DNA from: Thermocaproicibacter melissae
GTDB taxonomy: Bacteria; Bacillota; Clostridia; Oscillospirales; Acutalibacteraceae
Assembly (NCBI RefSeq): GCF_024498295.1
Contig: NZ_CP101827.1
Span: 562,001 to 626,000 of the forward strand
Direction: 5' to 3'
DNA: 64,000 nucleotides
The notes below the pieces were generated by a model that had not been told where the DNA came from, searched no databases, and saw only the letters and a program-made list of their open reading frames with translations. Positions 34,096 to 64,000 of the stretch are shown here, piece after piece (the stretch's first letter is position 1; each line of letters begins with the position of its first letter). The position numbers and the translations under genes are program-made.

Positions 34096-34136
34096 ATGCA
34101 GAAAACTAACTTTTTTCCTTAGCAGAAAAGTATGAA

Positions 34137-42416: not shown

Positions 42417-42430
42417 TACAATCCTGCCTT

Positions 42431-43126
42431 TCACACTTTCACACGCTTATTCATGTTATTTAGTTGGAAAATAATGTTTTCTTTTTTTTCACGACTGATT
42501 GTCCGCACATTGAAATAGGGATCGCCTGATAGTATCCGTTTGATTTCCTCGTAGCGGCCCTTGTTTTCCGCAAAAACCATCAGAAAAGCCTGACGGTCTG
42601 TTGTATCCCTCTCCAGCGCTTGCAGCGTTTCAAGCTTCTCCAGCAACATTTCTGAGTAACGCTCAAGATCAGGTCTTTTCAGCATATAGCTGATATACTC
42701 TTGTTGCTGCTTCGTGTTGGTCGGGTAATTCATACTGATGATTTTAATATCATCCGAAAGGCGTTGGAGCAATCGAGCGTTACTGAGCACCATATTCTCG
42801 ATTTCTTCATCCGTGGCGTCATAATATGACCTTCCCTGTATTTGAAACAGATCGATAATCTTTTTTTCATCGGTTAGGAAATATCCTTCTGTCTCTAAAT
42901 AATCACGGATAGGGAACACGGAGAGTATCTTGTTCGTACTTGCTGGCTTTGCAGCGGCCTTCTTTTTTTCTGCTTTACGCGCAATCTTTGAATTCTTTCG
43001 TTGCTCCTTCTTTGCTTTCTTTTGCTCGGCCTTCAGTTTTTTTAGTTCTTCCCGGTTTTTTCGAGCTTTTTCCTCAAATTCCCGTTCCTGTTGCTTTAAT
43101 TTCAAGCGTTCTTCTTTATCAAGCAT
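42431..43126 (-). CDS. Probable split-off N-terminal part of VirB4
   Basis: A 231-residue protein. Residues 1-60 are an extremely charged helix (LKKLKAEQKKAKKEQRKNSK); the rest, beginning ILSVFPIRDYLETEGYFLTD, resembles the N-terminal domain of Gram-positive VirB4/PrgJ proteins. With the 635 residues of the next gene the sum is near a full VirB4 plus the helix. The genes are adjacent in order. Separation into two genes appears natural, because both have their own start and ribosome site. Confidence 0.55.
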   Translation of the reverse strand: MLDKEERLKLKQQEREFEEKARKNREELKKLKAEQKKAKKEQRKNSKIARKAEKKKAAAKPASTNKILSVFPIRDYLETEGYFLTDEKKIIDLFQIQGRSYYDATDEEIENMVLSNARLLQRLSDDIKIISMNYPTNTKQQQEYISYMLKRPDLERYSEMLLEKLETLQALERDTTDRQAFLMVFAENKGRYEEIKRILSGDPYFNVRTISREKKENIIFQLNNMNKRVKV

Positions 43127-43436
43127 CTTTTTTCACCTTCATATCTGGAACATGATTGATGGAATAATGCGTATATTGATCCTTGCTTATATACAAGATA
43201 ATTGCTTCCCAATTTCGTTTTTTGGGATTGCCTGGTGCGGGCTGGATTAGAAAAAGACTACTGACTGATGCGATAATCCAATAGGGAACAATCAGCCAGG
43301 AATGTACTAGTGTTTTGAACATTAGGAATGTTCCAAGTAATACGCACAGCGCCAAGAAGTCTTTCCACCATAGACGTATAGGTCGGTCAATCAGCTTCAT
43401 TTCTTCCTTCAGCTGCTTTGGTATTATATATGTCAT
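43119..43436 (-). CDS. VirB3-like small membrane protein
   Basis: A 105-residue protein with two membrane segments (FLALCVLLGTFLMFKTLV and WLIVPYWIIASVSSLFLI) and the C-terminal signature NPKKRNWEAIILYISKDQ, seen in T4SS proteins of the DUF5592/PrgI-like class placed before virB4. It overlaps both neighbours by a few bases. Confidence 0.75.
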   Translation of the reverse strand: MTYIIPKQLKEEMKLIDRPIRLWWKDFLALCVLLGTFLMFKTLVHSWLIVPYWIIASVSSLFLIQPAPGNPKKRNWEAIILYISKDQYTHYSINHVPDMKVKKDA

Positions 43437-45307: not shown

Positions 45308-45323
45308 AAAGATGTTCCCTCTT

Positions 45324-47462: not shown

Positions 47463-47485
47463 ACGTTTTCTGCCTTTCATAAAAA

Positions 47486-47508
47486 GGGGCCGGATTTAAT
47501 CCGGCCCC
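47486..47508 (-). terminator. Terminator hairpin before virD4, left copy
   Basis: A 23-bp palindrome with arms GGGGCCGGATT. On the minus strand it is followed by TTTTT, so it would terminate or attenuate transcription into virD4. An identical copy lies on the other side of the IS1182 element (49033-49055), evidently a target duplication. Confidence 0.8.
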
Positions 47509-49032
47509 AGATTGTCGAAGAACCCATCCAACGCGGTTAAACGAAGGATGGGTTCTCTTGATAATATGCAGGATAGGAAAATAAGCAAAGTAAAATCAAT
47601 AAAAACCCGGAGGGATGGCCATCCCTCCATTTCCACATTGCCAGCTTTTTGAGATTCATGGCAGCAAACTTAAGCTTAACCCAATTCGTCACTTGAGTTA
47701 AGCCCCGGTAGAGCGTGTACCGCATCCCATATTTCACTTTTGCATCGGCGAAGACACGCTCAATGGTTTCTTTTCGTTTTTTGTAAAGCTCTTTGTATTT
47801 CGGTGTGTGCCTGATATCTTCCGCAAGCTCCACATAATCCTGCCACACATGCCGCGTTACGGTTTTCGTACAGCTTTTACTCTCGGTGCAGCGAGAACGG
47901 AATGGACATTTTTCGCAGATGTAACTCCGGCTTTTGTATTCCCGGTATCCCTCACGGTTGGTTGTTGCATAATGCAGAACCTGATATTCCGGGCAGATCA
48001 CACAGTCATAATATTCGTCGTATACATACTTCCACCATTCCAGATTTCCTGCTTTGGTCATTGGCCGCTTGTATGCTGTGGAAAGTACCCGCCCGTCGTC
48101 AAACACCCGTTTACAGATATGCGGCGTTTTGTATGCGGCGTCCGCCACCACCGTTTCAATTTCAGGAAACCGTTGAGTCACTTTGCCATAGACCGCGTCA
48201 AATGCTACACTGTCATGTACGTTTCCCGGAGTCACCTCAACGTCAAGGACAAAATTGTGTTTGTCGCAGGCCGTATGTGCTTCGTAGGCAAAGCACTTCT
48301 TGTGTTCTCCCTTTTGGAACAACCCGCTTTCCGGGTCTGTTTTGGACACCATGATTTCTTTTTCCTTCGGCGGTTTCGGAGTACTGTCGAATGGCTTCTT
48401 CCCATGATCTTCCCGGTCAGCGTTAACCTCTTCCATTAATTCTGAGGCATATCGCTTTGCCGCCTGAGGAACTGCCTTTTTGATCTTTTTGTTGATGTTG
48501 GCGTTTGCTTTGATATGCGTCCCATCCACAAATACTGCTTCCGGCTCCAAATATCCGGCGTAATTTGCCTCCTGCAAAATCCACGAAAACACCTGCTCCA
48601 CGGTTTCCTCTGTGAACCGGTGCTTAAAATTGTAACTCACAGTGGAGAAATGCGGCAGCTCCTCGTTCAGTGTATATCCCAGAAACCACCGATACGCGAT
48701 ATTCATATTGATTTCCTGCATCGTCCGGCGTAAAGAGGGAATTCCGTACAGATGCTGGATCAGAACAATCTTAAACAGGACGACCGGGTCCACACTAGGA
48801 CGACCGTTGCCCTCACAATACAAATCTTCTACAAAATCATAAATATGGCTAAAATCTACCGCGCTGTCAATCTTTCGCAGCAGATGATTTCCCGGCACCA
48901 ATAGGTCTGTATTCACAAATTCCACTGCATCTCTGCGTAGTTTTTCCCGTTCCAGCATCTTTCATCACCTGTCTATATTTTACCATTTTACAACGAAAAA
49001 GCCCAGCTTTCACTGGACTTTTTCGACAGGCT
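47509..49032 (-). mobile_element. IS1182-family insertion sequence in a terminator
   Basis: A 1524-bp element. The short imperfect ends share AG..TGTCGAA (left 47509-47522, right complement 49019-49032). It is flanked on both sides by the same 23-bp palindrome, consistent with insertion into a hairpin with duplication of the whole structure, as known for this family. Confidence 0.85.
47537..48958 (-). CDS. IS1182-family transposase
   Basis: A 473-residue DDE transposase. Motifs are RKIDSAVDFSHIYDFVEDLY, GRPSVDPVVLFKIVLIQHLY, Asp in AVFVDGTHIKANANINKK, Asp in TVVADAAYKTPHI, and Glu in ERVFADAKVKYGMRYTLYRG. The cysteine cluster CEKCPFRSRC is typical. The frame is intact. Confidence 0.94.
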   Translation of the reverse strand: MLEREKLRRDAVEFVNTDLLVPGNHLLRKIDSAVDFSHIYDFVEDLYCEGNGRPSVDPVVLFKIVLIQHLYGIPSLRRTMQEINMNIAYRWFLGYTLNEELPHFSTVSYNFKHRFTEETVEQVFSWILQEANYAGYLEPEAVFVDGTHIKANANINKKIKKAVPQAAKRYASELMEEVNADREDHGKKPFDSTPKPPKEKEIMVSKTDPESGLFQKGEHKKCFAYEAHTACDKHNFVLDVEVTPGNVHDSVAFDAVYGKVTQRFPEIETVVADAAYKTPHICKRVFDDGRVLSTAYKRPMTKAGNLEWWKYVYDEYYDCVICPEYQVLHYATTNREGYREYKSRSYICEKCPFRSRCTESKSCTKTVTRHVWQDYVELAEDIRHTPKYKELYKKRKETIERVFADAKVKYGMRYTLYRGLTQVTNWVKLKFAAMNLKKLAMWKWRDGHPSGFLLILLCLFSYPAYYQENPSFV

Positions 49033-49055
49033 GGGGCCGGATTTAATCCGGCCCC
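49033..49055 (-). terminator. Terminator hairpin before virD4, right copy
   Basis: The second copy of the 23-bp palindrome (see 47486-47508). It follows the VirB2-like gene and now stands between it and the IS element. Confidence 0.8.
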
Positions 49056-49060: not shown

Positions 49061-49351
49061 TTAAAATGCCATCAGACTAGAAATCCACCCCTTGATAACC
49101 GTGCATCCAGCACACAAAGCAATACCGACAATGATCGCCACAATTTTCTTTTTGCTTTTCTGAATTGATTCTTCGCTCCCTTGCATGTGCTGAACTGCGG
49201 CAACAACAAGGAATATTGATGCCAGCGCACCACCGGCTATCTGACCAGCTACTGTAATGTTGTTGATGGTTTGCTGAATCTGAGTCGGCATAGAAACTGC
49301 CATTTTAATCGGATTAACCGCCAAAAGAAGAGAAGAAATTCCAGTTTTCAT
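49061..49351 (-). CDS. VirB2/TrbC-like small membrane protein
   Basis: A 96-residue protein with two hydrophobic segments (ITVAGQIAGGALASIFLVVA and KIVAIIVGIALCAGCTVIKG) joined by a charged loop (QGSEESIQKSKKK). Size, topology and the place before virD4 fit the conjugative pilin-like VirB2 proteins of Gram-positive T4SS. AAGGAG lies upstream of the ATG. Confidence 0.65.
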   Translation of the reverse strand: MKTGISSLLLAVNPIKMAVSMPTQIQQTINNITVAGQIAGGALASIFLVVAAVQHMQGSEESIQKSKKKIVAIIVGIALCAGCTVIKGWISSLMAF

Positions 49352-49510: not shown

Positions 49511-51487
49511 TTACCGTTCCACCTCCTGTTCGTACTTAATTCCTTTTTTTGGCTTTTTACAGAGGCATTCATTGATGTCCTTGCCGGGATTGGGCGTAAT
49601 CTGCTTCACCCGGATTCCGGGAAAATCTTTTTGCAACGTCTTGAATATCTTCTCGTTGGCTTTTCGCCCAGCTTCGTCATTGTCGTTGGCCAAAACCACT
49701 TCCTTTATCTGTGGATTGGCGCGTAGACGGGAATACAGAGCAGCATCTTTGCAAGTGCCGCCGGTAGCAAGGAATGATGCTTTTTCCAATGGACGCCCTT
49801 GCATCTTTAACAGGGTCATAATTGACAGTGCATCAATGGGAGCCTCACAAACGTACAATTTTTCAGCATTCTTGGACTTTACCATCCATCCGATATCCTG
49901 ACGACTCCCGGCAATGTCCCTCTTAAAATTTGAATCAGTGAGAGTAGTATGGCGAGTGGCATATACTGCTTTTCCTGATTCATCCAAGCCGACAAATACC
50001 ACGTTGTGCTTGTTGTCCTCGTAAATCAAGCCGTCGCTTATGCACTGCTTTACAATTTCAGGGTCAAGACAGCGAGTTTTCGTCAGATAGGCAATTACGC
50101 GAGTGTATTTGCCATTGACTTTTTCCGGAAGGATAAATTCCTTCTTTTCCGGAGCCGGGGCGGTATGCTCCCGCGGGGCAGTATGAATATCGTCAAATCT
50201 GCCGTTTGTATACTCGTTTTTCAGTTTTTCAATTGCTTCTTTCTTTGAATACTCACCAAACTCCATAAGAAAATCAATGGGTGAGCCGCCTCGCCCATTG
50301 GAGAATCGATAGAAGCTGTTCGTTTCCGGATATATCATCACGCTGTCGTGCTCTTTTAGCGTATAATACCGACCTACGTGAACTGGTGTAAAACCCATTG
50401 CCTGTGCGACAGTAATGATTGAAACATTTTGCTTGATGTAATCCAGTACATCTTTTTTACGATCTGCATAAGCAAATCGGGTGCTGTGATCTGGTACTTC
50501 CGATTTTGCTTTTTGATACGCAGCTTCCGTTTCTTTTTGCTGTACTTTCGTATAGGAATGAGATTTTGGAATCATGGGTTCCAGTTCCTTACGCAGCTCT
50601 TGATATGTTGTATTGACAATTTTCAAGGCGTCTTCCAATTTGAAGTCTTTGAGAACCGTACAGGCTTTATAGCTCTCGGAAAAATGGCGTTTACGGGAGT
50701 CAGTGAGGGGAATGCCGAAATACTGTTGAAGCATGATGGATATTGAATCAGCTTCCAACTCTCTGACTGACTCAGGCAGCTGACGCGCTTCTCGATTATT
50801 GTGCATCAGAGCGTGGCCAAGCTCGTGAGTGAGTGTTGAAAGTCGTTCCGTATCATCGAGCTTATCATTGATTTGAATCACATTTTCCGTTGGATAAAAA
50901 GCACCCCGCAAAGAAATTGACTTTAAGTCCTCTTCCTTTACGGGGATTCCTTTTTGTTCGGCGAAATTTTTTACCGCAATGTATAATGTTTTATGTTCCT
51001 TTGAGGAATAACCCATATCGTAAAACTTTGGGTAATCCTCTGCGGGACAATCGGTTTGGGAAATGTCAAATACGGTGCCGATACCGTACCTGGTATATGT
51101 CACGGTTTTCAGTTCGCCGTTCGTGATCTTTTCCATTTCTTCGGGAGTGGCGTCAGCGACACGCCGGTATCGCTGTTTACCATCTATTTCACCAAGAGGG
51201 ATAAGTTCTGTTTTGATAGGGAAGAGTACCTTGATTCCATGTTCGCCTTTCTTAATTCGATATCCCTTTTGATTCCAGTCATGCAGGCTGGCAACAAAGG
51301 TTGCAAAGGGATTCTGTCTCTTTATCAGAATGGTATTGTTCAGAGAGTAATTCCAAAACCGGCTTTTGAAGGCAAGCAGTTCAGCGATTTTTTCCGGGTC
51401 TTCTTGAAAACTGTCGAGAACACTTTGCAATGTCCGCTTCATTTCCTCCAGTTTGGTTGACTGGGACTGATAAGCTCGCTTTGCCAT
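49511..51487 (-). CDS. LtrC-type protein: ArdC, zinc peptidase-like and Toprim primase parts
   Basis: A 658-residue mobile-element protein. An ArdC-like ssDNA-binding N-terminus (FWNYSLNNTILIKRQNP, WNQKGYRIKKGEHGI) includes a metallopeptidase-like HExxH motif (LTHELGHALMHNN). The middle (VAQAMGFTPVHVGRYYTLKE, RGGSPIDFLMEFG) is DUF3991/DnaG-zinc-finger-like, and the end a Toprim domain (YVCEAPIDALSIMTLL; VVLANDNDEAGRKANE). Probably protects and primes the transferred strand in the recipient. It lies directly downstream of ssb. Confidence 0.85.
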   Translation of the reverse strand: MAKRAYQSQSTKLEEMKRTLQSVLDSFQEDPEKIAELLAFKSRFWNYSLNNTILIKRQNPFATFVASLHDWNQKGYRIKKGEHGIKVLFPIKTELIPLGEIDGKQRYRRVADATPEEMEKITNGELKTVTYTRYGIGTVFDISQTDCPAEDYPKFYDMGYSSKEHKTLYIAVKNFAEQKGIPVKEEDLKSISLRGAFYPTENVIQINDKLDDTERLSTLTHELGHALMHNNREARQLPESVRELEADSISIMLQQYFGIPLTDSRKRHFSESYKACTVLKDFKLEDALKIVNTTYQELRKELEPMIPKSHSYTKVQQKETEAAYQKAKSEVPDHSTRFAYADRKKDVLDYIKQNVSIITVAQAMGFTPVHVGRYYTLKEHDSVMIYPETNSFYRFSNGRGGSPIDFLMEFGEYSKKEAIEKLKNEYTNGRFDDIHTAPREHTAPAPEKKEFILPEKVNGKYTRVIAYLTKTRCLDPEIVKQCISDGLIYEDNKHNVVFVGLDESGKAVYATRHTTLTDSNFKRDIAGSRQDIGWMVKSKNAEKLYVCEAPIDALSIMTLLKMQGRPLEKASFLATGGTCKDAALYSRLRANPQIKEVVLANDNDEAGRKANEKIFKTLQKDFPGIRVKQITPNPGKDINECLCKKPKKGIKYEQEVER

Positions 51488-51488: not shown

Positions 51489-51746
51489 CTATATCCGTCC
51501 TTCCTCTACCGCCGTAAGTATCTTTTCACTTAACGGTGGATTGGCCTGTTCGATTGGAACTAAATTATCTTTTCTTTCAACGGTTCCAATCTCCAACGTC
51601 TGAGGTTCATCGAGAGGGAGGAAGAACATCTGGCCAGCATCATCCTCAAAAATAACTGCGTCGTCAGTGTATCCGATAACAGTCGCAATGTCCTTTTCAT
51701 CGACGGCTACTCCGTCTGCAAATTTTCTGATTTCTTCTTTTAGCAT
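51489..51746 (-). CDS. Small acidic protein between ssb and the primase gene
   Basis: An 85-residue acidic protein (DGVAVDEKDIATVIGYTDDA, FEDDAGQMFFLPLDEPQTL). It overlaps the end of ssb by seven bases and ends one base before the primase gene, so it is surely co-translated. No family recognised; acidic small proteins in this place may act as DNA mimics or antirestriction factors, but nothing here proves it. Confidence 0.6.
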   Translation of the reverse strand: MLKEEIRKFADGVAVDEKDIATVIGYTDDAVIFEDDAGQMFFLPLDEPQTLEIGTVERKDNLVPIEQANPPLSEKILTAVEEGRI

Positions 51747-52156
51747 TCTGAATTACCTCTTTCCGCTAAATCGTCTGCGCTTAACGTGTCAATCAAATCC
51801 TCCGCTTCTTGGTGCTCAGCGGTTTCATTATCGGCAGCGTCCTGATTTTTAATCTTTCTATCGCAGAATTCAAAATTGTAAACGACGATATACGGTTCGC
51901 CGGCACGACCTTTTTCTTTGTCGTATTCTGGAATGTGCAACAATCCTTCTACGAATATTTTCTGACCTTTATGAACGTTCCTGAAGATGAAATCACCCAT
52001 ACCTCGCCATGCCATCACCTTGATGAAATCTACCTTATCTTTTCGCTGCTGGCAGGCAAGACGAAACTCACAGACATTATAATCTGTGTCATTTTTCCGG
52101 ACAGTTTTCAGTGTTGGCTCGGCGACCAGTCGTCCGATTCCCCATGCTTTTAACAT
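51740..52156 (-). CDS. ssb: Single-stranded DNA-binding protein
   Basis: A 138-residue OB-fold protein. Start GIGRLVAEPTLKTVRKNDTD, core FRLACQQRKDKVDFIKVMAW and GQKIFVEGLLHIPEYDKEK, acidic tail with a non-standard C-terminus (DDLAERGNSEC; the usual DDDIPF is missing). An element-coded SSB that would coat transferred single-stranded DNA. It follows the Tad operon by 15 bases. Confidence 0.85.
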   Translation of the reverse strand: MLKAWGIGRLVAEPTLKTVRKNDTDYNVCEFRLACQQRKDKVDFIKVMAWRGMGDFIFRNVHKGQKIFVEGLLHIPEYDKEKGRAGEPYIVVYNFEFCDRKIKNQDAADNETAEHQEAEDLIDTLSADDLAERGNSEC

Positions 52157-52171
52157 TTATCGTTTCTCCCT

Positions 52172-52645
52172 TCATTTTGAGTTAAACTTGCTATAAAGTG
52201 TTACTGGAATGTCAAGTGCAGTTACCTCCTTTCCGAAAAGATATAACGGCTCATGTATGTTGAATTGCACAGTGGTTTTAATTTCATGTTCCGTGAAAGT
52301 CAGAGCAACATCAGAGATTTTGAACTTTTCTTTTCCATTTTGATACCCTGTCAAGCTATTTTGGGTTCCAAGTGCATCTTGCAGCCTTTTTTTGAATATG
52401 TCAGAATCAAGCGCAGGAGTGTAATCGGAACCATTTTTGAAGGATTCTATTTCTCGCCGTCCTTCGGTCACTGTGCAGGTATCTAGAACTCTTTGCGCGG
52501 TATTACGAAGATATGCGGTTCGTATTTTCAGTTCCGAATAAGTAAAAAGCGCGCAGGACAGCATCAGTAGCACAATAAAGAGGACGATGCCGAAAACCAT
52601 TGCACTTCCCTTTTTATCTCGGAGTCTATAAAGAAACGTTTTCAT
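52172..52645 (-). CDS. TadF/TadE-like minor pseudopilin
   Basis: A 157-residue protein with a short basic leader and a type IV prepilin-like N-terminus: RDKKGSAMVFGIVLFIVLLM, followed by an exported domain. Cleavage after the Gly would place Phe at position 5, where pilins have Glu, as for tip-type minor pilins. It lies four bases after the TadE gene and 15 before ssb. Confidence 0.72.
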   Translation of the reverse strand: MKTFLYRLRDKKGSAMVFGIVLFIVLLMLSCALFTYSELKIRTAYLRNTAQRVLDTCTVTEGRREIESFKNGSDYTPALDSDIFKKRLQDALGTQNSLTGYQNGKEKFKISDVALTFTEHEIKTTVQFNIHEPLYLFGKEVTALDIPVTLYSKFNSK

Positions 52646-52649
52646 CGTA

Positions 52650-53069
52650 TCACTTCCAGTACTGCTGTGAAGTAACGGATTTTGTGATAGACAGGGATAT
52701 CGGGATGGATATTTTCAGCGCAGATATTGATGTCTGCATCGAAAGCCGAAGCGTAATCGTGTCGCCATACTGTACTGTCCGTGCTTCCGAATCAACATAT
52801 TCAGCCGTATATTCAACATTCGGCGTTATACCTGTTGCAGAGACCAATTCATTGTAACGTGTGGATACTCGCTCTCCGGAACAACGGCCTTCGTTGCCGA
52901 CCGTAACTGCAAGCTCATTTCCAAAGTCATTCAACGTATTGTAGGCGTTCATGGCTTTCATACCAGCCGAAATCATAACGAATAACGCAAGCAGCGTAAG
53001 CATAGCAATGACCGCACTGACATACTGATCCACACCGCCCCTCTTATCTTTCAAAAGTTTATGTATCAC
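52650..53069 (-). CDS. TadE-like minor pseudopilin
   Basis: A 139-residue protein. A GTG start overlaps the tadC stop (GTGA), with AGGGGGAAG upstream. The N-terminus KRGGVDQYVSAVIAMLTLLA fits a prepilin leader and helix but without Glu at position 5. The remaining domain is exported. It forms a pair with the next gene, as in Tad loci. Confidence 0.7.
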   Translation of the reverse strand: MIHKLLKDKRGGVDQYVSAVIAMLTLLALFVMISAGMKAMNAYNTLNDFGNELAVTVGNEGRCSGERVSTRYNELVSATGITPNVEYTAEYVDSEARTVQYGDTITLRLSMQTSISALKISIPISLSITKSVTSQQYWK

Positions 53070-53932
53070 AGACTTCCCCCTATCTGAGACGCCGATGAAT
53101 ACACCGCAAATCCAAGGATAATGAATACGGTTATCGTAGCGCATAAAAAGAGCATCAGTGACATCATGTTTAGCTTAGGTTCTTTCTTTAGCGCCTCTTG
53201 TTTTATTCGTTCTTTCCAGGCATCGGCCATTTTGTACCCCAAATTATCAAAGTAAGCCTTCATGTCGTTCCCACGAATTTCTGATTGCAGACCACGCACT
53301 AGCTCACTAAGCATAGAAGAATTAATGCGTGTCTCCAGATTGTGGAGAGCCTGTTCCTGGTTGCCTGTCCTCATGTCAGATACGGTAATGGCTAGTTCTT
53401 CCGTGAGAGGACTGTTGTAATTTGCTTTGTAGGAGTCAATTAGTTCCAGAACATTCCGTTCGCTTTTGAGTTCGCTGGCCATATAGTCCACGAATCGCGG
53501 AAGTTCTTTTTCAATCTCTCTCCGTCGATTGTCGCATTGACGATTGGCAATGTTGTATTTATGGATATACAAGTAGATTGAAAATGCGAGGGGAATAACC
53601 GAGAGAAGGGGATTAATGATATAAACCGGTATTGCAAGCAGGAGTACGGTGGCAGACGGAATAATGGCCGCCGCCACATATTCCTTTGGAGTTTCCTTCA
53701 TGCCCGCGGCGGTGAGTGCTCTTTGAATTTCTGTTTCCTTATATCTGTTGATTGGAACATATTGAGCAAGCCATTTCACCATACCGCTGAAAATACCGGA
53801 AGATTTCTTTTTAGTTGTGTGCTTGTATGCGAGACTTGCTTTCCACGGGGGTGTTTTCAAAGCGATCGCTGTGATGCAGTACAGCATTGCAAACAAGAAA
53901 AAAGCCAGCAGCGCAAGCCAGATGTATTTCAT
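53066..53932 (-). CDS. tadC: TadC-type pilus platform protein
   Basis: A 288-residue inner membrane protein of the GspF/T2SSF family. It has an N-terminal helix (YIWLALLAFFLFAMLYCITA), a central helix pair, a cytoplasmic four-helix domain (ELPRFVDYMASELKSERNVL) and a C-terminal helix (MLFLCATITVFIILGFAVY). It follows TadB by 12 bases. Confidence 0.82.
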   Translation of the reverse strand: MKYIWLALLAFFLFAMLYCITAIALKTPPWKASLAYKHTTKKKSSGIFSGMVKWLAQYVPINRYKETEIQRALTAAGMKETPKEYVAAAIIPSATVLLLAIPVYIINPLLSVIPLAFSIYLYIHKYNIANRQCDNRRREIEKELPRFVDYMASELKSERNVLELIDSYKANYNSPLTEELAITVSDMRTGNQEQALHNLETRINSSMLSELVRGLQSEIRGNDMKAYFDNLGYKMADAWKERIKQEALKKEPKLNMMSLMLFLCATITVFIILGFAVYSSASQIGGSL

Positions 53933-53944
53933 TTTTTCCCTCCT

Positions 53945-54853
53945 CTAGAGATCGTATTTTATATTGTGAGTTTCAAGAAACGCAATAATCGCCGTTATGG
54001 CTATCAGCAAACCATTGACGGCGACCAATATTTGCGTAAGCGTTGTCGGAAGTGTAATCAGCAGGCTGTCCGGGACAACTTTCAGACCTAAATATAGGAC
54101 ACCGATTGATGCTGCTGCAAGTTCCCAATAGGTTCGCTGAGAACGGTATAGGATAGTATTCAAATCATTCGTAACAACCTTAATATTTGTAAGTTTACTC
54201 ACACAAGAACGTAGTCCTTGCTTCAGATTTCGGTTGCCATTGCAGCGCTTTAATTCGTCGCACCATTCGTAAAATACGGAGTTGTTGATTTTTGTTTTCA
54301 TTTCTTCAATGGCCGCTTCGATATTCGGATCAACATACTTAACCCTCAAAAGAAATTCCGTGAAAACCTGACGGATTGGGGGCTGTATGTTGTCGATGTT
54401 TTCTTCCACAGCCTGAAGAATATTCTCTGTTCGTTCATACGATACGGAGATTACGGATAGTGCAGTTTCCAGTTCGTCAAGCAGCAGCCGTTGATACTTT
54501 AGATACTGGAACCGCAGATAGACGAACGGAACGGCAGCTAACCCGAAAGCGAGCACCGGAGCGAGATAATAGTTTCCTGATACTGCGCCGAGGAGAAGAC
54601 CACCAATAAAAAGAAGAAGCGCCGCCAGAAGCAGCATATAGAATTTTCCCCGCTGACCTGTAGCGGAAAGCATCGTTTTTATTCTGGTGACAGCACCCAT
54701 AAGCCAACTTGTCTTGTGGGTTGCCTGACGTTTCAGTGACGTTTTTCTGTTACGGTTATGAAATAAATCATGAACATCCTGAATGGAAATCCCAAACAAG
54801 AGCTGAATACAGAAAAAAATGGCGATACACGCCATTAGTAAAAAAATCCACAT
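53945..54853 (-). CDS. tadB: TadB-type pilus platform protein
   Basis: A 302-residue inner membrane protein of the T2SSF family. It has an N-terminal helix (IFLLMACIAIFFCIQLLFGI), two central helices, a cytoplasmic domain (LDELETALSVISVSYERTEN) and a C-terminal helix pair. The TCGGACA palindrome lies between the tadA stop and its ribosome site (GAAAGGAAAA). Confidence 0.82.
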   Translation of the reverse strand: MWIFLLMACIAIFFCIQLLFGISIQDVHDLFHNRNRKTSLKRQATHKTSWLMGAVTRIKTMLSATGQRGKFYMLLLAALLLFIGGLLLGAVSGNYYLAPVLAFGLAAVPFVYLRFQYLKYQRLLLDELETALSVISVSYERTENILQAVEENIDNIQPPIRQVFTEFLLRVKYVDPNIEAAIEEMKTKINNSVFYEWCDELKRCNGNRNLKQGLRSCVSKLTNIKVVTNDLNTILYRSQRTYWELAAASIGVLYLGLKVVPDSLLITLPTTLTQILVAVNGLLIAITAIIAFLETHNIKYDL

Positions 54854-54869
54854 GATGTTTTCCTTTCAC

Positions 54870-54886
54870 TCGGACAAAATGTCCGA
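54870..54886. repeat. Palindrome with TCGGACA core, site 3
   Basis: TCGGACAAAATGTCCGA starts one base after the tadA stop and ends just upstream of the tadB ribosome site. In the mRNA it would form a short hairpin between two coupled genes. Confidence 0.75.
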
Positions 54887-54887
54887 C

Positions 54888-56216
54888 TTACTTTTGGATT
54901 TCCTCCATTTCTTCCCGTGTGATTCCGTACATCTTCATTCTTTCAATGAGAGATTTCGAGATACTGTTGACTTGTATATGCTTTCCTTTGATTCGTACAC
55001 CGGAAGACGTTTGCTCGTTTGCCTCAATCTGATATTCCCATAATGTGCGATATTCTGCTTTATCGTTCTCCACGACGCATTCCGAAATATTCATAATTCG
55101 CCGTTTGTTATCTTCCAGCTTATGAAGATGTACCACAAGAGGAAATGCCTGTCTTGCCTGCATGATAGCTGTGTGATAATCAGTTGGGTACTTTTTTCGA
55201 CAAAGACCAGCAACACGCTCATGTCCCTGCTGAGGGCTTCCTGCGTGTGTGGTTGATATGACGACATTTCCGGCAAGACTGCCTTCCTGCGCCGCGTATG
55301 CTTCCGTGTTACGCATTTCTGCGACACTGAGAATATCCGGATTAAGGCGTAGGGCCTTTTCTACCAGCTTTTCCTGTGTGATGTTCTGTTCTTCATATTT
55401 TGCGTTTTCACGTGTTAACAGATGCACTACATTGTTTTTGACAACGCCTTTTTTATCTCTCTTGATTAGGTAGATTTCCCTCGCGCCCTGTTCGATTGTA
55501 ATGATCTGCATATCGTCGGGCATTTCAGAGAGAAGATAGGTCTGGAAGGTTGTTTTACCGGTATTAACCTTTCCGATAATTAGAATTGAAACGCCCCTGC
55601 GAAGAGCAATCTTCAAAAACTGCAATTCCTTTCTTGATGCAAAGTCTCCGGATAGATAATCCTGTTCTCGGAACACACGCTTACTTAGTTTTCGAATATA
55701 GCAGGCGACTCCGACATCTGGATCGACAAGTGGGGTTTGGAGAGCAGTAATGCGTATATTATTGTCAATGCTCGCCTCGGCCATCGGCACGGCGTTATCG
55801 ATTGTCTGATTGGACTTCTGAAGCAATCGCTTCACGATATCGATCGCGTGTTGTGGGGAATTGAATCCGTCAATTTTGATGGATTCGCCGGTGATGAATT
55901 TTACTCGGATATCATTCCACGAATTGATGGATATTCCTTCCACAAACACGTCTTCCAACGGATCAGTTAACACCGAATAGCGCTGAAGGTCATTGTATAC
56001 CTTTTCTGCAAGTTCCTCTGACGAATATCCGGTAAGCTGCATTTTATGGTCAGAGAGCGATTTCTTTATGTATGGCAGCATAAGTTCTTTTTTGTTTACT
56101 TGGTTATCATCATTCTGATTAATTTTCCAAAAGATTTCGTTTTGCTCTTTTTGGATTGTTGCTAGAATTTCCGGGTATTTCGGATCGGTTCCACGGCGCT
56201 GATAGCTGCGTTTCAT
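54888..56216 (-). CDS. tadA: TadA/CpaF secretion ATPase
   Basis: A 442-residue hexameric ATPase for Flp pilus assembly. Walker A is in ILIIGKVNTGKTTFQTYLL, the Walker B-like region is LRLNPDILSVAEMRNTEAYA, and VVISTTHAGSPQQGHERVAG is the His box. The N-terminal part has RYSVLTDPLEDVFVEGISIN, typical of CpaF. The start overlaps the TadZ stop (ATGA). Confidence 0.9.
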   Translation of the reverse strand: MKRSYQRRGTDPKYPEILATIQKEQNEIFWKINQNDDNQVNKKELMLPYIKKSLSDHKMQLTGYSSEELAEKVYNDLQRYSVLTDPLEDVFVEGISINSWNDIRVKFITGESIKIDGFNSPQHAIDIVKRLLQKSNQTIDNAVPMAEASIDNNIRITALQTPLVDPDVGVACYIRKLSKRVFREQDYLSGDFASRKELQFLKIALRRGVSILIIGKVNTGKTTFQTYLLSEMPDDMQIITIEQGAREIYLIKRDKKGVVKNNVVHLLTRENAKYEEQNITQEKLVEKALRLNPDILSVAEMRNTEAYAAQEGSLAGNVVISTTHAGSPQQGHERVAGLCRKKYPTDYHTAIMQARQAFPLVVHLHKLEDNKRRIMNISECVVENDKAEYRTLWEYQIEANEQTSSGVRIKGKHIQVNSISKSLIERMKMYGITREEMEEIQK

Positions 56217-56896
56217 AACAGTTCACCTACAATTCGATACAGAGTTTTGCGATATTTGCGTGGAGGGATGATATCGGTAATACAGATTCCATTGTAGATT
56301 CCGGATAGGCCCCGACAATAGGGAAGCACAGTTACCGGGGAATCGTAGGTACTAAGCACATCCGCAAGAGCGTTATTCGGGTTGTTGACAAAAAGCACTT
56401 GCAATGCGCAACCGTGGTTGGGATGATTCTGCCGGTAGTAATAACCCTTGACATCAGCTGTGGCTATACTAATTTGTTTGGAGCATTTTGATAATGCAAA
56501 TTTGTCAATCTTGTTCTGATGGGTGGAAGTATCGATTAGGATAATATCGGCAATTATACTTAGCTGTTGAAACAGTGATTCGAGATTGATTTTCGCAATC
56601 TCCGGATAGGTCAGTGCGGTTTCTCCGTCAGCATAACTGAGAAGCATGAGGTTTTTATTAATAGTGTGTGCGTTGTTAAAGATGTTTGCTTCGGCAATAG
56701 TTGCGAGGGAGAGAAGGCGGCCAAGTGAACGACCATCGTTATCCTTTCTATCAGGAAAAAGCATTTTGAAGGCGGGTTGATGACTGTCTGTTGAAACGAG
56801 GAATACCCGTTTACCCTGCTTGGATAAAATCTGAGCCAAATAAAAAGAAAACACCGTTTTCCCAGAATTACCGGTTACTGCTATCAGCTGCTCCAT
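56213..56896 (-). CDS. TadZ-like ParA/MinD-family protein
   Basis: A 227-residue P-loop protein; Walker A is AVTGNSGKTVFSFYLAQIL, a shortened ParA loop, and DIILIDTSTHQNKIDKFAL is the switch region. In Tad loci TadZ places the pilus machine at a site in the cell. It overlaps the CpaB gene by 29 bases. Confidence 0.78.
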   Translation of the reverse strand: MEQLIAVTGNSGKTVFSFYLAQILSKQGKRVFLVSTDSHQPAFKMLFPDRKDNDGRSLGRLLSLATIAEANIFNNAHTINKNLMLLSYADGETALTYPEIAKINLESLFQQLSIIADIILIDTSTHQNKIDKFALSKCSKQISIATADVKGYYYRQNHPNHGCALQVLFVNNPNNALADVLSTYDSPVTVLPYCRGLSGIYNGICITDIIPPRKYRKTLYRIVGELL

Positions 56897-57593
56897 CGTT
56901 TAGTACCTCGCTTTGCTTATCTAGAAATTTTTGTGCTGTTTTACTGTCACCACGATAGACCAGGGCAAAATGTATCTCACCGGAATCTTCATATTCGGTA
57001 AGTTGTACGGCCTGAGAAGGTGTAACTAACAAGGTAACAGTTTTTAGCGTATCTTTTTCTTCTTCTGTATCTGTTTGATCCCTATCAACACCTTTACTGT
57101 CCGTGACTGTCAAAACCTCTACATAAGTGAGCTCCGGTGGAATTGCAGCGCCGGATTTGTCGCTCTTTATGACAGAAACAATGTCGCCGCTCCGTAGCTT
57201 GTCTGATAAAGCATCGGAGAAATCTTTTATTGTCACAGAATACGCAACACGAGTCCCGTCGAGCATAGAAAGCCGGTCGGGCGCGGTTGAAATGCTGTCT
57301 GTGATTTTGTTTGAAAGGATAAGATCGCCTTTCGCAAAGTCGGCATCAGCATATTTACCAACCACATCATCTTTCGATGTAATAATGCCAGGGGATAGGT
57401 TATATGCTCCGACCGTCACATTTTGAACCATGTTATCCGCAATTTTCTCACCCTTTGAAACAGCGCAAGTAAATTTTACAACTTGCACCGTTTTTGCCTC
57501 GCTCTTAATTGTCGTTGTGTATGCGAATACACATAGAACAGCGAAAACACCGCAGATAAGAGCGAGAAATATCCTGTTTTTCACTATCTTCAT
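56868..57593 (-). CDS. CpaB/RcpC-like SAF-domain protein
   Basis: A 241-residue exported protein with an N-terminal membrane anchor (RIFLALICGVFAVLCVFAY) and an SAF domain (FTCAVSKGEKIADNMVQNVT, DFAKGDLILSNKITDS). The CpaB family forms part of Flp pilus machines. The ATG at 57593 is preferred since AAAGGAG lies upstream; the longer frame covers the peptidase gene. Confidence 0.82.
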   Translation of the reverse strand: MKIVKNRIFLALICGVFAVLCVFAYTTTIKSEAKTVQVVKFTCAVSKGEKIADNMVQNVTVGAYNLSPGIITSKDDVVGKYADADFAKGDLILSNKITDSISTAPDRLSMLDGTRVAYSVTIKDFSDALSDKLRSGDIVSVIKSDKSGAAIPPELTYVEVLTVTDSKGVDRDQTDTEEEKDTLKTVTLLVTPSQAVQLTEYEDSGEIHFALVYRGDSKTAQKFLDKQSEVLNDGAADSSNR

Positions 57594-57604
57594 AAAAATC
57601 TCCT

Positions 57605-58006
57605 TTATTGCAGCAGTATTGTTGCGATGGAAGCGCATCCTGCCGACAAAAACGGTACAAGAGGAATTTTGTCCCATTGAACGAAGCGTCGGATGATTGG
57701 AACTGCAATGATACATAAAAATGAGCCAAGCGCAAGCCCAACCAGGCCATTTGTACCTTTCAGAATCCATCCGCATAGTGCCCCAAACTTTACGTCACCG
57801 CCGCCGAAATCATTACGGATAGCGGCGGCGATAAGTAGAGGAATTGCTGTCAGAATGAGGCCGCTAACTGATGAAATGTCAACCTGAATCAACCCGGTCA
57901 GCAGGAGCAAAACATATACCCGTAGTGGTATGATTCTCGTCATTATATCCAATACTGACGCATATCCAATCACCACTAAAAAGCAAATAAGCTTGATAAT
58001 TTCCAT
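57605..58006 (-). CDS. Prepilin peptidase, TadV/CpaA type
   Basis: A 133-residue integral membrane aspartic peptidase. The two catalytic aspartates are in YASVLDIMTRIIPLRV and NDFGGGDVKFGALCGW (GxGD family). It is short and lacks the methylase domain, as usual for Flp systems. Its start codon overlaps the pilin stop. Confidence 0.85.
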   Translation of the reverse strand: MEIIKLICFLVVIGYASVLDIMTRIIPLRVYVLLLLTGLIQVDISSVSGLILTAIPLLIAAAIRNDFGGGDVKFGALCGWILKGTNGLVGLALGSFLCIIAVPIIRRFVQWDKIPLVPFLSAGCASIATILLQ

Positions 58007-58275
58007 CAGCCTTCAAAACTGAAAATGTTCTCAGTTGCCGTTTTTAGTCCTTTTGCAACCGTATTCTGGAAAAAGTCTTCCATTCCAGGCAGAAAAACGA
58101 CTGCTGCGACAACCAGGACGACAGCCATCAGGGCAATTACTGCGACAAGCTCAGAATTGCCTTTGTTGTCTTTGAACATTCGGCGCATGGAAGTAATCTT
58201 TTTGAAGTTATGAGGCGATTTTCCTTGCGCATTGGGGTACAGGGCCGAAATTTTCTTTTTTACTTCATTGAACAT
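58006..58275 (-). CDS. Flp-type pilin precursor with a long leader
   Basis: An 89-residue protein. Residues 1-39 are a basic leader ending MFKDNKG, followed by NSELVAVIALMAVVLVVAAV, a prepilin-type helix. Glu lies at position 3 after the likely cleavage point, where Flp pilins have it at 5. The rest is very short (GMEDFFQNTVAKGLKTATEN). It is followed at once by a prepilin peptidase, which supports the role. AAAGGAG precedes the ATG. Confidence 0.75.
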   Translation of the reverse strand: MFNEVKKKISALYPNAQGKSPHNFKKITSMRRMFKDNKGNSELVAVIALMAVVLVVAAVVFLPGMEDFFQNTVAKGLKTATENIFSFEG

Positions 58276-58346
58276 TTTTAAGAACTCCTTTTACAAAGAT
58301 ATTATCAACTGGAAGTAACCAGATGATTGCGTTATCTGTAATAATA

Positions 58347-58373
58347 AAAGCCGCTATCTTTCGATAACGGCTT
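58347..58373 (-). terminator. Attenuator between adhesin and pilin genes
   Basis: On the minus strand AAGCCGTTATC pairs with GATAGCGGCTT (one mismatch-type pair) around GAAA, followed by TTATTATT. It lies after the adhesin gene and 70 bases before the pilin gene. Confidence 0.75.
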
Positions 58374-58382
58374 CAGGCTAAG

Positions 58383-58399
58383 TCGGACAAACTGTCCGA
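58383..58399. repeat. Palindrome with TCGGACA core, site 4
   Basis: TCGGACA, loop AAC, TGTCCGA. The loop differs by one base from the other sites. It lies between the adhesin stop and the attenuator. Confidence 0.7.
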
Positions 58400-58439
58400 G
58401 TTGTCCCTGATGATTAGTTATTTATGTTCTACGTACCAG

Positions 58440-60920
58440 TCATGGCAAATGACTGATGTACCAGTCATCATAAATGTCACCGCCGATTACAATGGGCTTC
58501 AAAGTGCTTTGCAGGCTTATCATCCCGGCAGGCGTCCAGCAATCATATAAGAAGGTTTTTATGGTGTAATTTCCATCCGGATACCATAGGGGAGTGTAGT
58601 GAATACGCCGCCCGTCGTGTTCTCCGGTTATAGTAATGGAATATGGATTCTCTACGAATTCCAACTTGTTTGCAGCAGTGAGTTGCAGAGTTCTATATTT
58701 GCCATCGGCAAGTTCATACCCGAATTCGGGAAAATAAGCGTTGCCGCTCTGAGGTAGCACATACGCGCTTGAATCCGGCAGAATCGTGTCGTCATATTGT
58801 GATGCTTTTGTATTCACCATAAGGCTCAGTCCATAGCCGGATTTCATGTGCCAAATACCACCGGATTGAAATCTGGAGAAAGCGTTGACGTCAGGAACAA
58901 CCTGTTGATCGGCAACAAGCGTTAGGCCAAATGTTTTTTTACTCCAGGTTCCATTTTCATACACCCACTGCTGCCATACAGCATTCGGGGTTACATTGGT
59001 TGCATAATTGCCGGTGGGAATATCCGCTTTCTCGTCCGGTCTGGAGAAGTAATTTGGAGTGTTTTCAAATTTTGTGTTTGGCGTTTGTGAGTTGTCTGGT
59101 GCAGATACAGTAATATCTTGCTTATCAGTGTTGTTATTCGTGTTTGATTCCACGACACCGGATGGAGTATCTATTGTGCAGACAAATGAAACTTTTGAAG
59201 CACCCTCTGGAATTTTAACCTTAAACCAAGTCAGGTTTTCATTGCTTCGTGGGACAACTACTTTGTTTTGGTGAGTGGTAATGCCCTTCGTGACTCCATT
59301 TATCACGCAGCTTGCCGTAAAGTGTACGGTCAGGGGACGGTCAGAAGTATGTTCAGCATAGCTGTTGTTATGGATAAGATAACTTGCAATTATCTCCGTT
59401 CCGCTTCGATATGTTGCATTCGGCTCAACAAAAGTTGGATACACGTCGGATAAAGGATGATCTTCAAGCGTAAGGGGAATTACTTGCTCACTTTGCGATA
59501 CCGAGAATGAATGTTTACTGCTGTCAAGAGCAAAGCCGGTTGGGGCTTGTACTTCTTCAATGTAGTAGTTACCGTATGTAAGGTAGGGGCTATAAATCCA
59601 TTGGCCCGCATCTGAAGTAACATCTGCCACACGGGTTCCATCAGACTTAAATATCCGGTAAACAGCACCGGAAAGGTATCCGCCAGAATAGCTATCCTTC
59701 TTTACAAACTTCACGCGGCCTTTTTTGAGCGTGTTATTAAAATTAACCGTCGTCGTTTGCCCCGGTCGTACTGACACCGCTTGAGAAGATAATTGATTAT
59801 ACCTGGCTGGAATGCTGCTTTCTTGTACCGTATATGTTCCAACCGGAAGACCGGTTATAGTAAGCAGCCCTGAGGCATTTGTAGTGCCCTGCCTGGTTAT
59901 CCCATTGCCGGAGACGGTAAACGCGATGCCGGACACAATTCCGTCTTCTGATTGTTTTCGAATTGTCAAATTTCCAGTCGATTCTGTTTGAAGACGCATA
60001 TAAGCTGGAACTGGGTCGGGTGGATTGCTTCCCGTCACAATATTTTGAGCAGATGACGCAGACCATACTGTGATTACACCAACCTTGGATTGCTTTGGTA
60101 TTTTTTTAGTACAGCTAACATTTATCGGAGCTGTTTCATTGATAATGTTCTTTGTTGAAATTTTAAGTGTTTTATTATCCAATTTGGTGAAAGTAACTCC
60201 GTTAGCAGAAAAGGTTGTTTGTTCAAGTGAAGCAATAGAGTTTGTGTCATGCAATGTCGTCTCATATGCACCTGTGTTGGCGTTATATTTCAGAGTATAG
60301 GTAGGCGCAGTCCGTAATACTGACGAAGTGAACGATGGAATTACAGTAGCTTGTATTAGAGAATTATTTAGTGCTTCATAAACATTCATATAGCTGCTTT
60401 GATACGCACTTGGGGCTGACAGATTATTAATCAGTGAACGGTTCGAACACACGCCGGTATAGGGGTTGCGATAACCAAGGACATACTCCCATACGACAAT
60501 TTGAGTTATCGCAAAGCCTAAATATGGGTCACTAAAAAGACTACTATTGTTAGGATAGCCATAAAGAAGTGCTAGATTTATTCCGTACTGTTTATCTCGT
60601 CCTAGGCGGTTCCAATATGTTGCATCTCCCGTGCTATATGTTGTTCCATAAGCAATAGATGCCCCCGGTTCCACACAGTATGCTGGTGTATTTAATGATT
60701 TGAACCATAACCTCGTAATATCTTCGCCAGCGCGGAAAGTCATAATTTTTCCGTTGACTGGATTTGTAAAGGTGTAATTATTCTTCCACTTGAACCCATC
60801 GTAATACATAGATATTGTTCGGCTTTTCGCCGACACATTTATATGAAAAAAGCTTGTCTGAAGAGTAAGAAGCATACACAACAGACAGGCTACCGATTTA
60901 AGAAACATCCTTTTTTTCAC
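58440..60920 (-). CDS. Secreted thioester-domain adhesin with SpaA/Cna-B repeats
   Basis: An 826-residue surface protein. Signal peptide (ACLLCMLLTLQTSFFHINVSA), then a thioester domain: Cys82 in AYCVEPGASIAYG and Gln140 in AITQIVVWEYVLG are the expected cross-linking pair that can bind host or cell surface amines covalently. Two SpaA/Cna-B type domains follow (NLTIRKQSEDGIVSGIAFTV; GRVKFVKKDSYSGGYLSGAV), then a CARDB-like domain and an aromatic-rich end (YPDGNYTIKTFLYDCWTPAG). There is no LPxTG motif or C-terminal membrane anchor, so wall sorting by sortase is not expected. GTG start after AAGGAG. It precedes the Tad pilus operon. Confidence 0.82.
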   Translation of the reverse strand: MKKRMFLKSVACLLCMLLTLQTSFFHINVSAKSRTISMYYDGFKWKNNYTFTNPVNGKIMTFRAGEDITRLWFKSLNTPAYCVEPGASIAYGTTYSTGDATYWNRLGRDKQYGINLALLYGYPNNSSLFSDPYLGFAITQIVVWEYVLGYRNPYTGVCSNRSLINNLSAPSAYQSSYMNVYEALNNSLIQATVIPSFTSSVLRTAPTYTLKYNANTGAYETTLHDTNSIASLEQTTFSANGVTFTKLDNKTLKISTKNIINETAPINVSCTKKIPKQSKVGVITVWSASSAQNIVTGSNPPDPVPAYMRLQTESTGNLTIRKQSEDGIVSGIAFTVSGNGITRQGTTNASGLLTITGLPVGTYTVQESSIPARYNQLSSQAVSVRPGQTTTVNFNNTLKKGRVKFVKKDSYSGGYLSGAVYRIFKSDGTRVADVTSDAGQWIYSPYLTYGNYYIEEVQAPTGFALDSSKHSFSVSQSEQVIPLTLEDHPLSDVYPTFVEPNATYRSGTEIIASYLIHNNSYAEHTSDRPLTVHFTASCVINGVTKGITTHQNKVVVPRSNENLTWFKVKIPEGASKVSFVCTIDTPSGVVESNTNNNTDKQDITVSAPDNSQTPNTKFENTPNYFSRPDEKADIPTGNYATNVTPNAVWQQWVYENGTWSKKTFGLTLVADQQVVPDVNAFSRFQSGGIWHMKSGYGLSLMVNTKASQYDDTILPDSSAYVLPQSGNAYFPEFGYELADGKYRTLQLTAANKLEFVENPYSITITGEHDGRRIHYTPLWYPDGNYTIKTFLYDCWTPAGMISLQSTLKPIVIGGDIYDDWYISHLP

Positions 60921-60940
60921 TCTTATAATCTCCTTCCAGA

Positions 60941-60971
60941 GCAAAGAAAAGAGGCGGTTTTCCGCCTCTTA
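60941..60971 (-). terminator. Terminator before the adhesin gene
   Basis: On the minus strand AAGAGGCGG pairs with CCGCCTCTT around AAAA, followed by TTCTTTG. It follows the stop of the Ser/Thr-rich protein gene directly. The adhesin gene starts close behind it, so it depends on readthrough or a weak promoter. Confidence 0.8.
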
Positions 60972-62802: not shown

Positions 62803-63810
62803 TTACCAGTTTTGAATCGTCTGCATCGTGAATTTGTCATCGCGCAGATAGTTAATAAAAGCGCTTCGCCAGTATGCGGAAATATTTCGGACTCCGGCCA
62901 TGCTTTGACCTTTCATGTGGTCAAGAAAACCTCGGATATCGTCCGAGGTCACATTGGATATGTATGACTTGAAATAAGATCGACTTTGTAAAGTGCCGTT
63001 GATTTTGCTTTGTGGTTTAGTAAGCAGTTCGACCATACAATCAATCAGTGCCTTAACACAATCCAGATCATCTGGATAGTTTTCGTCAAAGTAATCATAA
63101 TCTATCTGCTCCATAAGTGACTTGCGTATTTCGTCTGTCTGTCCGTCAGTCATGTCAGCAGAGGGAGATTTTCCATAAGACTGATTGATAGACTGATTAT
63201 TATTAATATTTTTATTATTTATATCAGTCTTATTAGTCTTATTATTATTTATACACCTACGTTTAGCATAGGGTGCTTCGAGCATAGGGTGCTCTGAGCA
63301 TACGGTGCTCTGAGCATACGGTGCTTTTTGTAGGGTATGGTCAGGTGAAGTTTGTTCACTGCCTTCCTCACCATAGGGTACATTTTGTAGGGTATGGTCA
63401 GTATTGGCTTCTGGCGTGGGGTCTTCAGGCTCTGGAGGAGTCTTTACCGATTTGTTTTCTTCATGTTTATGGTTCATATTCACGATTGATGGAGTTGTAG
63501 TATCTGGAGTATCAAGAAGTTCATACTCGTACTCAAACCGACCACGATTGCTCCCAGGGATGCGGTATTGTTTCAGATAGCCACAATCCTTCAATTCGTT
63601 CCAGGCACTGTCGAATGCTCTAGTACCTTCAATGGATGATTTTTGCAGGAAACTTTTATAGAGATCATAGTTTGGGATGTTGATATAGCTCTGGATTAGT
63701 GCGTATAGACCTTTCGCGCGGAGACTGAGGCGAGGGTCTTGAAGGGCCGTATTTGATACGGCAGCAAAGTTTGTTTTATGGCGGAATCTTCCGTGTTGTA
63801 TTTCACTCAT
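62803..63810 (-). CDS. Replication initiator-like winged-helix protein with internal iterons
   Basis: A 335-residue protein. The N-terminal part (RHKTNFAAVSNTALQDPRLS, LRAKGLYALIQSYINIPNY, FDSAWNELKDCGYLKQYRIP) is a winged helix of the kind found in element and phage replication initiators. A low-complexity middle (DHTLQNVPYGEE, DHTLQKAPYAQ, then NNNKTNKTDINNKNINNN) covers the DNA iterons and AT-rich stretch. The C-terminus (IRGFLDHMKGQSMAGVRNIS) is DUF6017-like. The ATG at 63810 follows GTGAGG. Confidence 0.75.
   Translation of the reverse strand: MSEIQHGRFRHKTNFAAVSNTALQDPRLSLRAKGLYALIQSYINIPNYDLYKSFLQKSSIEGTRAFDSAWNELKDCGYLKQYRIPGSNRGRFEYEYELLDTPDTTTPSIVNMNHKHEENKSVKTPPEPEDPTPEANTDHTLQNVPYGEEGSEQTSPDHTLQKAPYAQSTVCSEHPMLEAPYAKRRCINNNKTNKTDINNKNINNNQSINQSYGKSPSADMTDGQTDEIRKSLMEQIDYDYFDENYPDDLDCVKALIDCMVELLTKPQSKINGTLQSRSYFKSYISNVTSDDIRGFLDHMKGQSMAGVRNISAYWRSAFINYLRDDKFTMQTIQNW
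63181..63256. other. AT-rich stretch beside iterons, candidate unwinding element
   Basis: About 75 bases of almost only A and T with short repeats (TTATTATT, ATTAGTCTTA), directly beside the iterons at 63265-63328 and inside the rep gene. The layout resembles the origin inside the O gene of phage lambda. Confidence 0.5.
63265..63328. repeat. Four tandem 16-bp iterons in the replication gene
   Basis: Units start at 63265, 63281, 63297 and 63313: AGCATAGGGTGCTTCG, AGCATAGGGTGCTCTG, AGCATACGGTGCTCTG, AGCATACGGTGCTTTT. Each holds the inverted pair AGCA/TGCT. Spacing of 16 bp is not a multiple of three, so selection acts on DNA rather than on a protein repeat. Confidence 0.8.
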
Positions 63811-63835
63811 TTTCTTTTCCTCACTTTTCTGTTCA

Positions 63836-64000
63836 TCAGATAAAAGAATAGCAACAGTCATTGCCTGTTGCTGTCCGATTCACATATATTTTGATTTTGG
63901 TTCCGTCTTTGCATTGAACAATATCGAGCAAGGGGTGGTTGTCATTTTCACCATATTCATCCATATTTACACAACATTCGTACCATTTGCGAAGTTTTTG
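63836..64000 (-). CDS. Unknown protein, start beyond the window
   Basis: The last 54 residues of a minus-strand gene (KLRKWYECCVNMDEYGENDN, ending RTATGNDCCYSFI). No family recognised. The next gene starts 25 bases behind its stop, so it heads the same operon. Confidence 0.55.
   Translation of the reverse strand, partial: QKLRKWYECCVNMDEYGENDNHPLLDIVQCKDGTKIKIYVNRTATGNDCCYSFI

Follow-up and report, generated by a model that had tools for sequence, protein, structure and literature searches.

A complete Tad pilus operon within a pLS20-like conjugative element of Thermocaproicibacter melissae

Conjugative elements that combine a type IV pilus with a type IV secretion system (T4SS) include IncI plasmids (R64), in which the pilus serves contact in liquid, and PAPI-1, in which it serves all transfer (PMC12857230). 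Gram-positive systems are stated in reviews to encode no conjugative pili and to be universally devoid of VirB11 homologs (PMC12857230). The plasmid pLS20 carries an adhesin, Tie, that is required for efficient mating (PMC8092201), and the literature on this plasmid names its ATPase virB11. In the part of Imam 2011 (PMC3244431) available to us, clostridial tad-like loci are described as being of unknown role, and no link to conjugation is drawn. Here, we analyze a stretch of 64,000 nucleotides (the window) from Thermocaproicibacter melissae, positions 562001-626000 of a 1.96 Mb genome (G000:C1), in which a complete tight adherence (Tad, or Flp) pilus operon lies inside a pLS20-like conjugative element. 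A preliminary description of this DNA inferred that the element makes an Flp pilus to hold recipients, a role not known to be described for Gram-positive conjugation. The literature consulted agrees that the role is undescribed (including PMC12857230 and PMC8014075), and no paper on Tad pili of Gram-positive conjugative elements was found in a search that left subscription journals and preprints largely outside. The observation itself is confirmed and is more general than the window shows.

Coordinates below are those of the window unless marked otherwise, and the protein genes of the element listed with coordinates lie on the minus strand. Running from 58275 to 51740 are genes for an Flp-like pilin of 89 amino acids (58006-58275), the A24 prepilin peptidase TadV (57605-58006), CpaB/RcpC (56868-57587), a TadZ-like ParA/MipZ ATPase (56213-56896), the motor ATPase TadA/CpaF (54888-56216), the GspF/PilC-type platform protein TadB (53945-54853), TadC (53066-53932), a TadE-like pseudopilin (DUF4320, 52650-53144), a TadF-like pseudopilin (52172-52645) and the single-strand DNA-binding protein (ssb, 51740-52156). 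The full minimal set in one direction, with overlapping or nearly overlapping genes, is thus as first described. After ssb, the run goes on with a conserved protein of 85 amino acids (51489-51746), found at the equivalent position in relatives, an ArdC-N/M78 peptidase/DUF3991/Toprim protein (49511-51487) and a PF18895 T4SS pilin (49061-49351). All the way from the Flp-like pilin (58275) to the T4SS pilin (49061), neighboring genes either overlap or are separated by gaps of at most 34 bp.

Matches above curated cut-offs were obtained for TadV (PF01478, with catalytic motifs DIMTRIIP and GGGD), CpaB (TIGR03177, 78.5 bits, and PF16976), TadA (PF00437), TadC (PF00482), the TadE-like protein (PF14208, 56 bits) and the ssb product (PF00436). 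In TadA, the Walker A, Asp box, Walker B and His box motifs are kept. This protein is nearer to solved CpaF (8rkd, E 4e-17) than to VirB11 (E 1e-11), and its TIGR02788 score is far below the cut-off; we therefore rejected its assignment as VirB11. TadZ matched only general ParA/MipZ-type families (PF13614, PF09140) and occupies a conserved position, while the pilin was recognized by a weak match to DUF6133 and by alignment with relatives. Pfam searches returned no match for TadB or TadF. TadB has a profile-profile match to TadC (93%), and its structure model resembles PilC/EpsF cytoplasmic domains (TMt 0.69-0.72, compared by domain, with weak E-values). TadF was assigned by its position, conservation (including a prepilin-like N-terminus) and pilin-like layout, a 61-residue N-terminal helix followed by the strands of a beta sheet in the model; a fold search of the PDB gave no significant match to it. 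No second TadA of the element type was found in the host genome.

The preliminary description had the run continue without a break into virD4 and the T4SS, after a hairpin. This holds as far as the T4SS pilin; an IS1182-type insertion sequence (IS, approximately 47486-49055), foreign to the ancestral operon, precedes virD4. Besides its transposase gene, the IS has identical palindromic ends of terminator-like appearance, and the hairpin before virD4 turned out to be one of these ends. It was consequently rejected as an operator. The genome holds eight identical copies of the IS. In a relative, locus L156 of Ruminococcaceae UBA5391, the IS is missing between the T4SS pilin and virD4. The identical copies also indicate recent activity of this IS. 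Beyond it lie genes for the coupling protein VirD4 (45324-47480, PF02534), a VirB6-like membrane protein (43433-45415) whose position matches pLS20_p028/extended VirB6, a DUF5592 protein in the VirB3 position (43119-43436, PF17332), the VirB4 ATPase (40509-42434, PF19044), a MobL relaxase (37326-38567, PF18555, 324 bits) and a hydrolase of cell walls with lysozyme-like and M23 domains in the VirB1 role (36311-37333). As can be seen, a conjugative gene set of the pLS20 kind is present, and every tad and T4SS reading frame in the window is open.

Several lines of evidence indicate that the tad block is built into the conjugative element, as had been claimed. The G+C content of tad (43.3%) is close to that of the T4SS (43.1%), with tad, ssb-ArdC and T4SS spanning 43.1-43.7%, while flanking host genes are at 48-52%. 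A palindrome, TCGGACANNNTGTCCGA, has six sites across the element, one of them inside parB and two within or beside the tad block, namely upstream of the pilin gene (58381-58409) and at the tadA-tadB junction (54868-54896); two further sites lie near another parAB pair. Sites of this palindrome were located at 8962, 35748, 54870 and 58383 of the window and at genome positions 627040, 628261, 349999 and 352811. Sister elements carry it too, and there also inside parB; it is probably a parS or operator site. When the tad genes were compared with those of L156 (TadA 79% identical), synonymous changes were saturated or nearly so, and pN (nonsynonymous divergence) was 0.14-0.25 for every gene compared, from which strong purifying selection on these genes follows. 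In L156 itself, TadZ is spread over two overlapping frames (458-1643 of that locus), a frameshift or an assembly error.

We mapped about 40 related loci and scored the linkage of tad with VirB4 in 398 family genomes. The tad gene order, which the preliminary description had proposed to look for in related genomes, recurs in dozens of them. A VirB4 lay no more than 45 kb from at least 20 of the 40 element-type TadAs and from none of the 44 others (Fisher p 1.3e-8). The count is a lower bound because many contigs are short, and the p-value is indicative only because several loci come from related elements. Chance neighborhood of tad and T4SS was rejected on the basis of this linkage and of composition. 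Mapped loci showed three arrangements: MobL elements of the window type; TadV-CpaB-TadZ-A-B-C-E-F-x-thioester-domain (TED) adhesin-...-VirB4-hydrolase, which belongs to another T4SS backbone (VirB4 about 24% identical); and parA-parB-Flp(s)-tad-x-TED adhesin-...-ArdC. The last order was found in most of the 73 loci, nearly all of them from Clostridia, retrieved in a named scan. That scan was built on six closer TadAs, an alignment of 17 divergent ones being too varied, so these 73 loci lean to one TadA clade; phage records with TadA were unannotated faecal contigs and were left out. In the other comparison proposed, based on 19 elements, the TadA tree was largely congruent with that of VirB4 (Mantel r 0.50, p 2e-4). 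The window is the exception: its VirB4 groups with those of G360 and G277 and its TadA with that of G384, which indicates that its tad cassette was swapped.

In four sister elements (G277, G360, G008 and G004; loci L115, L113, L056 and L055, respectively), a TadA copy located beside ssb or the 85-amino acid gene groups with the window TadA (support 1.0). These copies, which retain Walker A and an open frame, no longer have the residues of Walker B and the His box and can thus be described as pseudo-ATPases. G277 and G360 have, on the contig of the decayed TadA, a further complete tad operon, which belongs to another clade; in G004 and G008 such an operon lies on other contigs, and because of this separation, a single element in the latter two is our inference. 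A simple reading of these sequences is that the first, ancestral tad set, still present in the window and L156, decayed in the sisters while the second took over. A function retained through such gene exchange argues that tad matters to the element. The large protein beside TadA2 in relatives was considered as a tad part and rejected on account of its Big_2 surface-protein identity; the TadA-derived pseudo-ATPase of G360 and G277 is adjoined by a surface protein with Big_2 repeats.

Four complete circular plasmids were found to carry a full tad set together with a T4SS: pTPHSE1 of Terrisporobacter, pCd5_2 and pESS10701c of Clostridioides, and one plasmid of Oscillospiraceae, in which the Flp pilin was not recognized. 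A relaxase is present in three of the four, the stretch of pCd5_2 that was read ending before that region. MOB-suite types pTPHSE1, pCd5_2 and pESS10701c as non-mobilizable, and no published study of their pili was found. A 110-kb Thermoanaerobacterium plasmid, pMU3262 (L231), has two separate tad-like clusters (CpaB, TadZ, TadA, platform protein, DUF4320). Together with the composition, palindrome, VirB4 linkage and tree data, the complete plasmids give good support to the conclusion that the tad block is part of the conjugative element rather than a chance neighbor of it.

In pLS20 (NC_015148), genes for Tie, TadA (gene name tadA in RefSeq), two membrane proteins and a TadE-like protein all stand before VirD4. 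Profile-profile comparison of the pLS20 family gave TadE at 98.7% and TadC at 87.5% and 73.8%, and a Priestia plasmid bridges the family proteins to tad (TadB 96.5%, TadC 98.1%). The two membrane proteins are therefore probably TadB and TadC; a direct search with TadB/TadC profiles did not recover them, and the profile-profile values obtained for the pLS20 proteins reached 74-88% only. TadA of the pLS20 type was present in 150 plasmid records (57 from Bacillus, 45 from Listeria and 31 from Enterococcus), 94 of which were typed as conjugative, and is annotated as CpaF/VirB11 in the Listeria and Enterococcus records.

Upstream of the tad run lies the gene of a thioester-domain/SpaA adhesin (58440-60944; PF08341, PF17802; motifs YCVEP and TQIVVW), whose best solved relative is BaTIE (6fwv, E 9e-20). 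Since a terminator-like hairpin (58374-58347) parts it from the pilin gene, the adhesin gene is probably a separate transcription unit. A thioester adhesin adjoins tad in most loci mapped.

We consider it probable, if far from certain, that the element encodes a monoderm Tad pilus of its own for mating and that this pilus, with the thioester adhesin, makes the contact between donor and recipient. Pilus formation and the role in mating are deduced from the genes, whose content, linkage, co-inheritance, selection and replacement as a cassette are matters of observation. TadV would mature the Flp, TadE and TadF prepilins, and TadA would power assembly on a platform formed by TadB and TadC, which CpaB and TadZ would align. 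The pilus and the neighboring adhesin could then reach and hold recipient cells, after which the VirD4/VirB4/VirB6 channel would send DNA processed by MobL. On pLS20-type plasmids, TadA, the probable TadB/TadC and the TadE-like protein with Tie may represent a reduced form of this division of labor. The proposal is favored by the completeness of the set and the conserved motor motifs, by the tight tad-ssb-ArdC run of matching G+C and by the palindromes in the tad block.

Four observations weigh against it. First, although the pilin, TadE and TadF are laid out like prepilins in general, none of the three has the canonical E at +5: the window pilin (KG/NSELVAV) has E at +3 of the G/xxxxE(Y) motif, and relatives show AEAYVD or NG/SGIVEY, some motifs being clearer there (e.g., KRGEGYID, AEAYVD). 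Second, in the window element, the IS parts the tad-ssb run from virD4. Third, the other half of the element-type TadAs have no VirB4 in reach among the matches listed, partly on account of short contigs. Fourth, MobL elements whose VirB4 is 45-51% identical have adhesins, but the stretches read contain no tad; a MobL-type T4SS can therefore do without it. Relatives mostly without tad, with scars at both ends, were what the preliminary description had named as speaking against it; this pattern holds only at that distance, since tad is present in all five MobL elements with VirB4 at least 76% identical or equivalent synteny (in two of them on another contig), as well as in L156.

The same distant MobL elements, which manage without tad, are in line with the view that tad is accessory cargo, a pilus for adhesion of the host to gut or feed surfaces that spreads with the element and is dispensable for mating. 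Tad pili are adhesion organelles (PMC12307814), and no other pilus type is moved, or found on plasmids, as often as Tad (PMC6668835). Cargo would, however, be expected at variable sites and in many kinds of elements, whereas tad keeps to the vicinity of ssb/ArdC/virD4 or par genes, diversifies in step with VirB4 and is exchanged instead of disappearing. We therefore regard this explanation as unlikely, though one to be taken seriously. A further proposal, that the Tad-derived proteins provide the T4SS or the adhesin with the VirB11-like motor and export platform otherwise missing, with the "pilins" forming a short pseudopilus or scaffold, draws on the pLS20-type plasmids, in which TadA, the TadE-like protein and probable TadB/TadC were seen but neither prepilin peptidase nor Flp, and on the decayed TadA whose reading frame has stayed open next to ssb in four elements. 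It seems improbable to us, given that TadA is nearer to CpaF than to VirB11 and that the window and most clostridial elements keep a prepilin peptidase, Flp pilins (up to six genes), CpaB and TadZ, which would be superfluous for a bare motor.

Beyond the adhesin gene, the element continues with a DUF6017 protein, replication-initiator-like by its neighborhood (62803-63861), followed by parB and parA (locus L005, just outside the window). No tyrosine integrase was found in the element, serine recombinases not having been searched for; together with the rep-like and parAB genes, this suggests an integrated plasmid rather than an integrative and conjugative element, which would have an integrase and defined att ends. 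An Rfam search returned tRNAs only. A 58 kb interval has a Val-Asp-Phe-Gly-Cys tRNA array at each end (window 7752-8154; L005 9375-9748); in the right copy, the promoter is missing, as is the 5' half of tRNA-Val. Inside this interval, two identical 1382-bp ISL3 copies (9011-10392 and 34136-35517) flank a host segment with the genome's only fab/acc operon, which points to a rearrangement or an assembly misjoin. The notion that the window block is a remnant stuck in the chromosome, with transfer lost, could appeal to the missing tyrosine integrase, the IS before virD4 and further IS copies, and the host genes between the tRNA arrays, but it is very improbable in view of the open tad and T4SS frames and the purifying selection seen against L156, and it would concern the window copy, not the element class.

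Chances are about even, in our judgment, that Tad-derived machinery is a standard and widely overlooked mating-contact module of Gram-positive conjugation, with full pili in clostridial plasmids and elements and a reduced TadA/B/C/E set beside Tie in pLS20-type plasmids of Bacillus, Listeria and Enterococcus. If so, what is called "VirB11" in pLS20 would be a Tad motor, and it would be wrong to hold, as the rule does, that Gram-positive systems are devoid of both pili and VirB11 homologs. The pilus operons that our survey revealed on Gram-positive conjugative elements, complete, under selection and co-inherited, bear on how donors credited with no conjugative pili catch recipients. The question of mating contact can now be put to a direct test in pLS20/B. 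subtilis and in clostridial plasmids, and it is relevant to how resistance genes spread in the gut.

Among known systems, pTPHSE1, pCd5_2 and pESS10701c are close to the window in that they have the full tad set upstream of VirD4/VirB6/VirB3/VirB4 and a relaxase that is MobP2 where the stretch read reaches that far; they differ in being autonomous plasmids with tad of another TadA clade. The pLS20 family shares the T4SS order (VirD4 of the CD1115 type, extended VirB6, DUF5592, VirB4, hydrolase, ribbon-helix-helix auxiliary protein, MobL), TadA, a TadE-like protein, likely TadB/TadC and a thioester adhesin, the window adhesin being a relative of BaTIE and of one kind with Tie. In that family, prepilin peptidase, CpaB, TadZ, TadF and Flp were not recognized, while the window has the whole set. 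The tad systems of Caulobacter, Aggregatibacter and Gram-positive bacteria (Imam 2011, PMC3244431) resemble that of the window in core proteins and in the logic of gene order; that of the window differs in being element-borne, T4SS-linked and without secretin, the host being monoderm. IncI and PAPI-1 likewise encode a type IV filament system beside a DNA channel, but they are Gram-negative, their pili belong to a branch other than Tad, and homology does not extend block by block. By analogy with these systems, the best reading is that the Tad pilus and adhesin of the element would work like the type IV pili of IncI plasmids.

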